A stretch of 64,000 bases of DNA from Curtobacterium sp. ER1/6 (GTDB lineage Bacteria; Actinomycetota; Actinomycetes; Actinomycetales; Microbacteriaceae), in NCBI RefSeq assembly GCF_001742745.1, contig NZ_MJAK01000001.1, forward strand, positions 62,001 to 126,000, given 5' to 3'. The number at the start of each line of letters is the position of its first letter. Position 1 is the stretch's first letter. The notes beneath the pieces are model-generated. The model was not told where the DNA came from and did no database searches. It saw only the letters and a list, made by a program, of their open reading frames with translations. A program made the translations under genes and the position numbers. Shown here in pieces: positions 32,943 through 62,855 of this stretch.

Positions 32943-33320
32943 GGGGATGATCGGTTTCGACATTGCCTGTGTGCCGACGGGAAGCGGGCCGAGGACCCAC
33001 GGTCATCTCGTGAACGATCCGTGGAAAACAACAAGTGCCAATTCCAAGCGCACTGACTTCGCTCTCGCTGCGTAAGCAGCCCAGCACATGAAGTCCGTCG
33101 GCCAGGTGATCGTCTTCTAACCTGAGTTCCGGCGTCATCCAGAGGACTTGCTGCACGGTTGCGCCTCAGGGCCGTGCGGGACTTGCACTGGGACTGGGCC
33201 CGTCGTCCTAGAAGCCGGTAGCAAAGGACGGGGCCGAGCAGAACGCCTCATCCGGATACGCCCGTAGAAGACGTCGAACCGCAGCGATGGACGGGGGTTC
33301 GATTCCCCCCATCTCCACCA
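32943..33320 (+). ncRNA. ssrA: Transfer-messenger RNA (tmRNA)
   Basis: Rescues stalled ribosomes and tags the nascent peptide. The 5' end GGGGATG pairs with CATCTCC ahead of the 3' ACCA (33317-33320, CCA encoded). The T-arm reads GGTTCGATTCCCCCC. The tag frame runs 33037-33075 and encodes ANSKRTDFALAA followed by TAA, close to other actinobacterial tags with the ALAA end. TAAGCT at 32867-32872 may be the promoter -10 of a precursor. No integrase or att-like duplication follows. Confidence 0.96.
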
Positions 33321-57970: not shown

Positions 57971-59053
57971 CTACGCCGTGACGCGGGCCCGGTGGTACTG
58001 CTGCGGTTCGTAGTCGAGGGCGACGCCGAGCTCGGCGGCTGCGCGCAGCGCGAACGACGGGTCGCGGAGGAACTCGCGCCCGACCATCACGACGTCGGCC
58101 TGCCCGGTCGCCACGACCTGCTCGGCCTGGAACGCGGTGGAGATCATCCCGACCGCGATGGTGCCGATGCCGGCCTCGCGGCGGACGGTCTCGGCGAAGG
58201 GCACCTGGTAGCCGGGTCCGACCGGGATCGCCGCCCGCGCGACGTTGCCGCCGGTCGAGACGTCGGCGAGGTCGGCGCCGTGCTCGGCGGCCCAGCGGGC
58301 GACCTGCACGACCTCGTCGACCGTCAGGCCGCCGTCGGTCCAGTCGGTCGCCGAGAAGCGGACGACCACCGGGAAGCCCTCGCCGACCTCGGCGCGGACC
58401 GCGTCGACCGTCTCGAGGAGCGCACGCGCCCGGTTCTCGAGCGAGCCGCCGTAGCCGTCCGTGCGGTGGTTGCTCAGGGGCGAGAGGAACTGGTGGAGCA
58501 GGTAGCCGTGGGCTGCGTGCAGCTCGACGAGGTCGAAGCCGGCCTCGACGGCGCGGCGCGCGGCGGCAGCGAAGGCCAGTGCGACGACGCGGATGTCCTC
58601 GGGTTCGAGCTCGCGCGGGGTGGCGTACCCGTCGAAGGCCGCGGCGGACGGGGCGACGGTCTGCCAGCCGCCCTCGGACGCGGGGACGCTGCCCTGCACG
58701 TCGTTCCACGGGCGGTACGTCGAGGCCTTGCGCCCGGCGTGCGCGAGCTGGATGCCCGCGGCGGCGCCCTGCGCGTGCAGGAAGTCGACGATCGGCCGGA
58801 AGGCGTCGCGCTGCTCGTCGTTCCACAGCCCGACGTCCTGCGGCGTGATCCGGCCCTCGGGCACGACGCCCGCGGCCTCGACCACCACCGCGCCTGCGCC
58901 GCCCTTGGCGAACCCGCCGAGGTGCACGAGGTGCCACGCCGTCGGGACCCCGTCCTGCTGCTCGACCGAGTACTGGCACATCGGCGAGACCCAGAGTCGG
59001 TTGCGGACGGTGAGGTCGCGGATCGTGATGGGTTCGAACAGGGCGTGCGTCAC
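57971..59053 (-). CDS. Old Yellow Enzyme (YqjM/NamA-like ene-reductase)
   Basis: FMN-dependent NADPH:enone oxidoreductase of 360 residues. It has SPMCQYS with the Cys that tunes FMN in YqjM-type enzymes, QLAHAGRKAS, VELHAAHGYLLHQFLSPLSNHRTDGYGGSLENRARALLE and VVMVGREFLRDPSFALRAA. It reduces activated alkenes such as unsaturated aldehydes. The GTG at 59053 overlaps the HAD gene stop, so the two are cotranscribed. Confidence 0.94.
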   Translation of the reverse strand: MTHALFEPITIRDLTVRNRLWVSPMCQYSVEQQDGVPTAWHLVHLGGFAKGGAGAVVVEAAGVVPEGRITPQDVGLWNDEQRDAFRPIVDFLHAQGAAAGIQLAHAGRKASTYRPWNDVQGSVPASEGGWQTVAPSAAAFDGYATPRELEPEDIRVVALAFAAAARRAVEAGFDLVELHAAHGYLLHQFLSPLSNHRTDGYGGSLENRARALLETVDAVRAEVGEGFPVVVRFSATDWTDGGLTVDEVVQVARWAAEHGADLADVSTGGNVARAAIPVGPGYQVPFAETVRREAGIGTIAVGMISTAFQAEQVVATGQADVVMVGREFLRDPSFALRAAAELGVALDYEPQQYHRARVTA

Positions 59054-59688
59054 GCGGGTGCTCCTTCGGCGGTCCGTGCCGCCAGCTCCTGCAGGAAGGT
59101 CCGCAGCGCGGTCGGCGACGTGTAGTGGTGGCCGACCGCCCCGATCGCGTCCGCGCCGGCGGCGTTCTCGGCCCTGTTGTCGACGAACACCATCTGCTCG
59201 GGCGTGATTCCCAGCCGCTCGCACGTGGTGCGGTAGACGGACGGGTCGGGCTTGAGGACGTGCTCCTCCGCGCTCACGACGACCGTCTCGAACAGCGAGC
59301 CCATCGGCGATCGCCGGTAGGGGTCCCCGAAGTCGAAGCCGGCGTTCGAGAGCATCGCCAGGCGCGTCCCGGCGTCGTGGAGCTCCTCCACGACCGCCAG
59401 GGTCTCCGGCTCGACCTCGAACCACCCCGTGAAGTCGACCGCCCAGAAGCGGTGGATGTCGGTGACCGTCCAGCTGCGCCCGGTCCGGGCACCGATGGCC
59501 CGCCAGTAGTCGAGGACCGACAGGTCGCCGCGGTCCAGGTCGTGCCGGCGCTCCCGGTAGACGGGCAGCAGCTCGTCTGCCGGCACCCCGGTCATCGCGA
59601 CGAGGGTGTCCCACGCGCCGTGCGGTGTCCTGCTGATCACCTCGCCGTAGTCGAAGACCACCACGCGACCGGGCAGGAACAGGCTCAT
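59050..59688 (-). CDS. HAD-superfamily hydrolase (subfamily IA-like)
   Basis: Product of 212 residues. Motif I is VVVFDYGEV (nucleophile Asp13; the residue two places on is Gly and not Asp, as in some epoxide-hydrolase-N-terminal-like HADs). Motif II is LAMLSNAG, Lys is in EEHVLKPDPSVY, and motif IV is MVFVDNRAENAAGADAIG. The substrate is unknown. ATG 59688 lies seven bases after minus-strand TACGGT and has no ribosome-binding site. Confidence 0.9.
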   Translation of the reverse strand: MSLFLPGRVVVFDYGEVISRTPHGAWDTLVAMTGVPADELLPVYRERRHDLDRGDLSVLDYWRAIGARTGRSWTVTDIHRFWAVDFTGWFEVEPETLAVVEELHDAGTRLAMLSNAGFDFGDPYRRSPMGSLFETVVVSAEEHVLKPDPSVYRTTCERLGITPEQMVFVDNRAENAAGADAIGAVGHHYTSPTALRTFLQELAARTAEGAPA

Positions 59689-59695
59689 GCGCTCC

Positions 59696-59705
59696 ACCGT
59701 AACGT
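59696..59705. promoter_or_regulatory. Overlapping divergent -10 hexamers
   Basis: Minus-strand TACGGT (59701-59696) serves the HAD gene and plus-strand TAACGT (59700-59705) serves nnrD. They share two base pairs. Each is followed by exactly seven bases and a start codon (ATG 59688, GTG 59713). Confidence 0.6.
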
Positions 59706-59712
59706 GGCGGTC

Positions 59713-60573
59713 GTGAACGACTCCGTCCCCTTCGCCCCCGCCGACGCCGCCGCCTGGACCACCGCCCCGCACGGCGAGTCCACCAAGTACCGACGCGGGG
59801 TCCTCGGCGTCGCGACCGGCTCGGACCGCTACCCCGGCGCCGCCGTCATGGGCGTCGACGCCGCCGTCCACACCGGCGTCGGGATGGTCCGCTACGTCGG
59901 TCCCGCACGAGCGACCGACCACGTGCTGCACCGGCGCCCCGAGGTGGTCTCGGGCACGGGCCGCGTGCAGACCTGGCTCGTCGGGTCGGGGATCTCCGCC
60001 GGATCGCTCGGGGAGCTCGACCCGGCGACGGCGGCCGCGTTCGGGCACGCGTCGGACGACGGGGTCCCCGTCGTGGTCGACGCCGGCGCGATCCCGCTCG
60101 TCGACCTCGGGCCGCTCGCGGTGCTGACCCCGCACGCGGGGGAGCTCGCGCCCGTGCTCGGCACGTCGCGCGAGGACGTCGAGGCGGACCCGGCGGCAGC
60201 GGCGCTCCGCGCGGCCGAGCGCACCGGGAGCGTCGTGCTGCTGAAGGGGTCGGCGACGCACGTGGCGACCCCGGACGGCTCGGTGCGGCTCGTGGCGACC
60301 TCGGCGACGCCGTGGCTCGCCGCCGCGGGTGCCGGTGACGTGCTCGGCGGGGTGCTCGGCGCGCTCGTGGCGACGCGGCAGGGCGCCGCCGAGGCCGACG
60401 GGTCGTCGCTGTCGCCGTCGGACCTGGCGCACCTCGCCGCCTCGGCTGCGGTCGTGCACGGGCTGGCGGCGCGACGGGCGTCCCGCGGCGGGCCGTTCAC
60501 GATGACGGCGCTGATCGAGCAGCTGCCCGGTGTGGTGCGGGACCTCGTCGTCGAGGGCGACGCGCGGGGGTAG
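59713..60573 (+). CDS. nnrD: ADP-dependent NAD(P)H-hydrate dehydratase
   Basis: Repairs damaged NAD(P)H by dehydrating the S-hydrate; ribokinase-like fold. The 286-residue product has STKYRRGVLGVATGSDRYPGAAVMGVDAAVHTGVGMVRY, AVLTPHAGELAPVLGTS, VVLLKGSATHVATPDG and the ADP-site AAAGAGDVLGGVLGAL. It lacks the N-terminal epimerase (NnrE) domain found in fused forms. GTG 59713 is preferred over GTG 59704 because 59704 lies inside the -10 hexamer. Confidence 0.92.
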   Translation: MNDSVPFAPADAAAWTTAPHGESTKYRRGVLGVATGSDRYPGAAVMGVDAAVHTGVGMVRYVGPARATDHVLHRRPEVVSGTGRVQTWLVGSGISAGSLGELDPATAAAFGHASDDGVPVVVDAGAIPLVDLGPLAVLTPHAGELAPVLGTSREDVEADPAAAALRAAERTGSVVLLKGSATHVATPDGSVRLVATSATPWLAAAGAGDVLGGVLGALVATRQGAAEADGSSLSPSDLAHLAASAAVVHGLAARRASRGGPFTMTALIEQLPGVVRDLVVEGDARG

Positions 60574-61580: not shown

Positions 61581-62855
61581 CAGAGGTCCCGGTGGGTCGG
61601 CGTCGTCGGGTTCGCCCTGGCGTTCCTGCTCGTGCACGGCGTGCTCTGGTGGCTCGCCACGACCGTGCCGAACCAGCCGTTGGGTGACGTCCTCATCACG
61701 TACCGGCGCTGGATCGAGGTCGGGCGCGTCGACCACTCGTGGGTCGGGGTCGACACCGACTGGGTGTACCCGGTGTTCGCGATCGTGCCCATGGCGGCGG
61801 CCGCGCTCGGTGGGACGGCCGCGATCGGCACCGGGTGGCTCGCGCTCATGGTGCTGCTCGACGCCGTGGCGTGCGCGTTCCTCTGGCGCTTCCGCGCGTC
61901 CGGCGTCCGCGTCGTGTGGTGGTGGCTGCTCTTCCTGCTCGCCCTCGGGCCGATCGCGCTCGGACGCATCGACACCGTGGCGACCGCGCTCGCCCTGGTC
62001 GGCGTCGCCTTCGTCGTGACTCGGCCCGCGGTGGCCTCCGCCCTGTTCACCGCCGCCGCGTGGACCAAGGTCTGGCCGGCCGCCCTGGTGGGCGTGCTGC
62101 TCCTGCTCCGTCGCGGGCACCGTGGGACGGTCGTCGCCGGCGCGGCGGTCGTCACCGGCCTGGTCGTCCTGGTCGACGTGCTCTACGGCGGCGCACCCCA
62201 CCTGCTGTCCTTCGTCGGCGAGCAGAGCGACCGGGCGCTGCAGATCGAGGCGCCGCTCGCGACGCCCTTCATGTGGGCGGCTGCCCTCGGCGTGCCGGGC
62301 GCGGCGGTGTACTACGACCGCGAGATCCTGACCTTCGAGGTGTCCGGCGCCGGGACCCATGCCGCCGCTGCCCTCTCGACACCGCTCATGGCCCTGGTCG
62401 TGCTCGGCGGGGTCGCCGCCGCGCTCCTCGCCGTCCACCGCGGTGCCCGCCGTGCCGAGGCCGCCCCGGTCCTCGCGCTGCTGTTCGTCGCCGCGCTCAT
62501 CGCGGTGAACAAGGTCGGGTCCCCGCAGTACGTCGGCTGGTACGCGGTGCCGGTCGTGTGGGGGCTCGTCGCCGGTCGGCCGAGTGCCCGACGGTTCCTG
62601 CCCGTCGCGATCGGTGTGCTGCCGATGGCCGTGCTGACGCAGGTGATCTACCCCGGCTACTACGACCAGCTGCTCGCGGTCGAGCCGTGGATCGTCCTCG
62701 TGCTCACGGTGCGCAACCTGCTCGAGGTCGCGGTGCTCGTCTGGGCGGTCGTCGTCCTGGTGCGCCTCGGGCGTGGATCCTCCGACCGCCGAGGCGACGC
62801 CGAGGAGGCGCGGTCGGTGCGGCGGGACGTCGCCGGGGGCAGGATGGACGCATGA
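61578..62855 (+). CDS. Polytopic membrane protein, glycosyltransferase-87/DUF2029-like
   Basis: Product of 425 residues with about ten hydrophobic helices (WVGVVGFALAFLLVHGVLWWLA onward). The first exported loop reads QPLGDVLITYRRWIEVGRVDHSWVGVDTDWVYPVFAIVPM, with the Asp and Tyr-rich pattern of polyprenyl-phosphate-mannose-dependent (GT87) transferases. Several helices carry AWTKVWPAALVGVLLLLRRG, also typical. Catalysis is not proven. The stop overlaps the ATG of the thiamine-binding-like gene. Confidence 0.78.
   Translation: MQRSRWVGVVGFALAFLLVHGVLWWLATTVPNQPLGDVLITYRRWIEVGRVDHSWVGVDTDWVYPVFAIVPMAAAALGGTAAIGTGWLALMVLLDAVACAFLWRFRASGVRVVWWWLLFLLALGPIALGRIDTVATALALVGVAFVVTRPAVASALFTAAAWTKVWPAALVGVLLLLRRGHRGTVVAGAAVVTGLVVLVDVLYGGAPHLLSFVGEQSDRALQIEAPLATPFMWAAALGVPGAAVYYDREILTFEVSGAGTHAAAALSTPLMALVVLGGVAAALLAVHRGARRAEAAPVLALLFVAALIAVNKVGSPQYVGWYAVPVVWGLVAGRPSARRFLPVAIGVLPMAVLTQVIYPGYYDQLLAVEPWIVLVLTVRNLLEVAVLVWAVVVLVRLGRGSSDRRGDAEEARSVRRDVAGGRMDA

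Follow-up and report, generated by a model that had tools for sequence, protein, structure and literature searches.

Overlapping divergent −10 hexamers between HAD and nnrD of Curtobacterium probably form one conserved bidirectional promoter

In the window, the whole stretch of 64,000 nucleotides analysed from Curtobacterium sp. ER1/6 at 62001–126000 of contig C1, a HAD-IA hydrolase gene (HAD) and nnrD diverge from start codons with a gap of 24 bp (ATG at 59688, minus strand, to GTG at 59713, plus strand). An Old Yellow Enzyme (OYE) gene lies downstream of HAD and probably belongs to the same operon. The features discussed here are as follows.

57971 to 59032, minus strand: NamA-like oxidoreductase of the Old Yellow Enzyme family, located downstream of HAD; start codon provisional
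59050 to 59688, minus strand: HAD-IA hydrolase, 212 aa, ATG start at 59688, predicted to be leaderless
59696 to 59701, minus strand: predicted −10 hexamer of HAD, TACGGT, 7 nt to the ATG
59696 to 59705, both strands: putative shared bidirectional core, ACCGTAACGT on the plus strand, which fits ANNNTANNNT
59700 to 59701, both strands: self-complementary TA dinucleotide common to both hexamers
59700 to 59705, plus strand: predicted −10 hexamer of nnrD, TAACGT, 7 nt to the GTG
59713 to 60573, plus strand: nnrD, 286 aa, encoding a stand-alone ADP-dependent NAD(P)H-hydrate dehydratase; begins with GTG and is predicted to be leaderless

The plus strand at 59686–59715 (CATGCGCTCCACCGTAACGTGGCGGTCGTG) consists of CAT, GCGCTCC, ACCGTAACGT, GGCGGTC, and GTG. 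The sequence-only reading had described two overlapping −10 hexamers, TACGGT (minus strand) and TAACGT (plus strand), that share 59700–59701; all of these coordinates are right, and the 24 bp between starts and the seven bases from hexamer to start on each side can be read directly in the sequence. On both sides, the first T of TANNNT is 13 bp before the start codon, which is the distance (∼12–13 bp) of leaderless genes, and the opposite-strand −10 elements overlap in one site, as those of bidirectional promoters do. A further GTG in the nnrD frame, at 59704, overlaps the −10 hexamer of nnrD. This codon is missing at locus L034, and on inspection relatives with a 6-nt spacer would have it out of frame, which makes 59713 the more likely start of nnrD. 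No −35 consensus was found on either side of the locus, and a scan with the sigma-70 consensus, uninformative for TANNNT promoters, gave no matches. A search of the window against Rfam returned nothing at the HAD/nnrD locus and only a tmRNA elsewhere, a full-length match to a gene at 32943–33320 on the plus strand. The HAD product has a weak NCBIfam match to glucose-1-phosphatase and a nucleophile motif, FDYGEV (D-x-G, at 59640–59655), without the usual second Asp, a form of the motif known from YihX-type phosphatases.

In Actinobacteria, a TANNNT located ∼12 bp upstream is the mark of leaderless genes (PMC3160421; PMC3898074). The same signal is evident in a sample of 464 kb of the genome, taken in stretches (the window and L113–L132) that hold 379 predicted genes. 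TANNNT precedes the start codon by 6 nt in 27 of these genes, by 7 nt in 16, by 8 nt in 9, and by 9 nt in 8, and it is found in 0–2 genes at each other spacing up to 30 nt; the control motif ATNNNA is flat over the same spacings. Both focal hexamers fall within this 6–9 nt peak, which accounts for ∼16% of sampled genes and suggests that the mRNAs of HAD and nnrD are both probably leaderless.

At 72.7% GC, the chance of A, T, A, and T at four fixed positions is about 3.5e-4, and given one TANNNT, a single added base (an A four before the TA) suffices to create a two-way element. In the whole genome of 3.37 Mb, the focal locus is the only match to the exact pattern with seven bases on either side, CAY-N7-ANNNTANNNT-N7-RTG. 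A motif-first scan of the 464 kb for overlapping divergent TANNNT pairs at both starts, with coding on both sides, found four pairs, and all four overlap by exactly the TA (offset −1, the only overlapping offset seen in the sampled genome). Controls with shifted spacing or with ATNNNA found zero overlapping pairs. Four double sites are barely above the 2.9 expected from one-sided rates; what gives them weight is the coding potential to either side, together with conservation. Across the whole genome, CAY-N6-9-ANNNTANNNT-N6-9-RTG fits in both directions at ten places, eight of which have good coding on both sides. Besides HAD/nnrD, these are, as judged from their translations, pairs similar to thiL/DUF3515, mutY/a second gene, SGNH hydrolase/acyl-CoA dehydrogenase, dapB/GNAT, crgA/pabA, and MFS/TetR, and one unnamed pair; the genome has at least seven further divergons of the focal kind. 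The one-sided loose pattern, ANNNTANNNT-N6-9-RTG, is not enriched genome-wide (53 matches vs. 71 in a backward control), and single-sided matches were therefore set aside as evidence.

HAD and nnrD are divergent neighbors in nearly all of 100 loci compared across Microbacteriaceae, a family of bacteria from soil and plants, although these loci are related and counts among them are not counts of independent events. All 52 distinct Curtobacterium loci have ANNNTANNNT, and in 51 the start codons are 4–9 nt away on both sides; the sole locus out of range (L050) is so owing only to a shifted reading of nnrD. Among other Microbacteriaceae, the element is present in 28 of 38 loci, mostly as ACGATAGTTT, with both starts in range in 20. 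Not one of 44 distinct Curtobacterium 60-mers or 26 distinct outgroup sequences departs from the A, TA, and T. Some inner bases, by contrast, differ across the family (ACGTTACGGT, ACAGTACGGT, ACGGTACGGT, and ACGATAGTTT), changing in the nnrD half within the genus and in both halves between genera. This conservation removes the chance reading and is the strongest evidence that the overlap at the shared TA, as judged from the sequences compared, is more than coincidence.

Relatives in which the arrangement has come apart are also informative. In ten loci (six of Frigoribacterium, two of Frondihabitans, L091, and L111), the distance between the genes has grown and the shared element is gone. In all ten, HAD kept a TANNNT 6–7 nt from its start and the opposing A that would serve nnrD was lost; in eight, nnrD has a TANNNT of its own 6–7 nt from a start codon. 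Five Curtobacterium genomes (L173–L177) lack HAD and have kept nnrD, in every case with a TANNNT at 7 nt from the nnrD start. L173 and L174 no longer have the HAD half of the core, but L175, L176, and L177 retain a fitting core, and L066, which has lost nnrD, likewise still fits ANNNTANNNT. These four do not follow a strict use-it-or-lose-it rule and may be recent cases. In three loci (L079, L080, and L104), HAD has acquired a leader while the core is kept, which means that not every locus is leaderless on the HAD side. In at least three HAD-less genomes (L175–L177), OYE is the divergent neighbor of nnrD, and in L177 it carries its own TACGGT 6 nt before a GTG.

We suggest that 59696–59705 is, very probably, one bidirectional housekeeping-sigma promoter that serves HAD-OYE and nnrD and is held in place by two leaderless starts. 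A single self-complementary TA would supply the −12/−11 bases of both −10 elements, and because it serves both, RNA polymerase could bind either way round and transcribe HAD-OYE on one strand or nnrD on the other. At the usual distance from a −10 element, transcription is predicted to start at 59712 and 59689, 23 bp apart, or at the start codons themselves, 25 bp apart; with starts at or next to the start codons, both mRNAs would be leaderless. Each start codon would pin a −10 element about 12 bp upstream on its strand, and the two constraints would lock a single shared site. This double fixing, together with a TA able to function on either strand, would be the reason for the conservation. Weighing against this explanation are the HAD leaders in the three loci above, the HAD half still held by L175 and L176 after loss of HAD, the fit of L066, and GGTGGAG, which directly precedes the HAD ATG in Curtobacterium and could be a weak Shine-Dalgarno sequence.

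If GGTGGAG is instead a true ribosome site, HAD, and possibly nnrD, would be leadered from a promoter elsewhere, with GTG 59704, which is in frame, as the start of nnrD and the hexamers as by-products of coding and Shine-Dalgarno sequence. This is very unlikely because outgroup HAD has TAGTTT ahead of its GTG or ATG and in most of these loci no Shine-Dalgarno sequence, GTG 59704 is absent in L034, and the positions that never vary belong to TANNNT and not to a ribosome site. Alternatively, the conserved 10–14 bp could be an operator for a regulator, with the −10 likeness secondary. In Curtobacterium, the site is an imperfect inverted repeat, CCAC-N6-GTGG, the outer arms of which match in the window (CCACGTTACGGTGG) and are nearly invariant within the genus. 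Outside the genus, however, the arms are asymmetric (CACGATAGTTTG) while the A, TA, and T persist, the split divergons have a single TANNNT at each start rather than a palindrome, and unrelated gene pairs show the same geometry. A palindromic operator was rejected on these grounds and, of the readings weighed here, we hold it the least probable.

The sequence-only reading also held that RNA polymerase cannot occupy both hexamers at once, and this steric incompatibility is indeed a direct consequence of the geometry. Its further claim, that the genes are under mutual exclusion without any regulator, found no support. It is very unlikely that selection has kept the overlap as a means for nnrD and HAD-OYE transcription to suppress one another, with anticorrelated expression as the result, although the block follows from the shared bases and the arrangement is conserved. 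In Escherichia coli, the two polymerase orientations at bidirectional promoters exclude each other and opposite-strand repression arose solely under strong activation of one direction, but basal activity was too low for competition at five of five promoters tested (PMC12825309). At the focal locus, neither a conserved −35 element nor an activator site that could strengthen one side was seen. In a simple occupancy model with rates that were assumed and not measured (attempts once per 100–600 s, occupancy of 1–10 s), loss of output is 0.2–8.3%, under 9% throughout, and stronger effects need a busy site; one simulated case (an attempt per 100 s, 3 s occupancy) gave a correlation close to zero, −0.016. 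Moreover, exclusion is dispensable because the promoters are separated in at least ten relatives. Regulation by mutual exclusion is thus unsupported, given that published tests saw no competition at basal activity and the divergon splits freely in evolution; exclusion between polymerases would be unavoidable but probably too rare to regulate at basal activity, and a regulatory claim would matter only if competition were shown. A broader scenario, in which doubly leaderless shared-TA divergons are a conserved class of Microbacteriaceae, polymerase exclusion couples the genes, and changes in occupancy driven by starvation or CarD/RbpA shift the strand without a regulator, we consider very unlikely. 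The proposed redox-cofactor link between nnrD and OYE fares no better because the element persists where OYE is absent: in six loci, five of Curtobacterium (L068, L069, and L071–L073) and one outside the genus (L075), the core is kept and no OYE was found beside HAD. Likewise, the five HAD-less genomes kept nnrD.

Bidirectional bacterial promoters were reportedly surveyed earlier by Warman in Nat Microbiol in 2021. Their class is defined by divergent start sites 7–25 bp apart, a range that includes the 23–25 bp predicted here from hexamer positions. Common spacings are 18, 10, and 23 bp with the −10 element shared, and 23 bp is a named class (PMC12825309); a shared −10 element together with this predicted spacing points to the HAD/nnrD element as one promoter read both ways. 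Like the bidirectional (pseudo-symmetric) promoters described by Warman, Grainger, and colleagues (PMC12825309), it shares −10 bases between opposite strands, lies between divergent genes, is predicted to yield two mRNAs, and has polymerase orientations that exclude each other. Unlike them, it is in a GC-rich actinobacterium, has TANNNT rather than TATAAT and no recognizable −35 element on either side, probably drives two leaderless transcripts, and is conserved family-wide as ANNNTANNNT. It also resembles the promoters of TANNNT-led leaderless actinobacterial genes (PMC3160421; PMC3898074), with TANNNT 6–7 nt before an ATG or GTG and no −35 consensus, but differs in that two of these promoters lie back to back on one common TA. 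The HAD/nnrD promoter is therefore a case of an already described type, the 23-bp class of E. coli, with two probably leaderless genes.

For study of bidirectional promoters outside enterobacteria, the locus offers clean natural material: a 10-bp core, two predicted leaderless genes, dozens of species in which the core is whole, and about ten in which its halves lie apart. Because shared-TA divergons recur in this actinobacterial genome, closely spaced divergent starts in it should be taken as a single promoter, which can also serve to correct start codons. In the 464 kb sample, ANNNTANNNT is rare, with 22 sites vs. about 160 expected from base composition, and 16 of the 44 sides of these sites have a start codon 6–9 nt away. 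Six more divergent pairs of the same genome (L134, L136, L138, L140, L141, and L142) have ANNNTANNNT 6–9 nt from both starts. Another divergon, crgA/pabA-like by translation (L137, C16:65711–65739 in the same genome; also L143–L172), has the core ATCCTACCGT in all 30 Curtobacterium loci read, 26 by pattern and four by eye.
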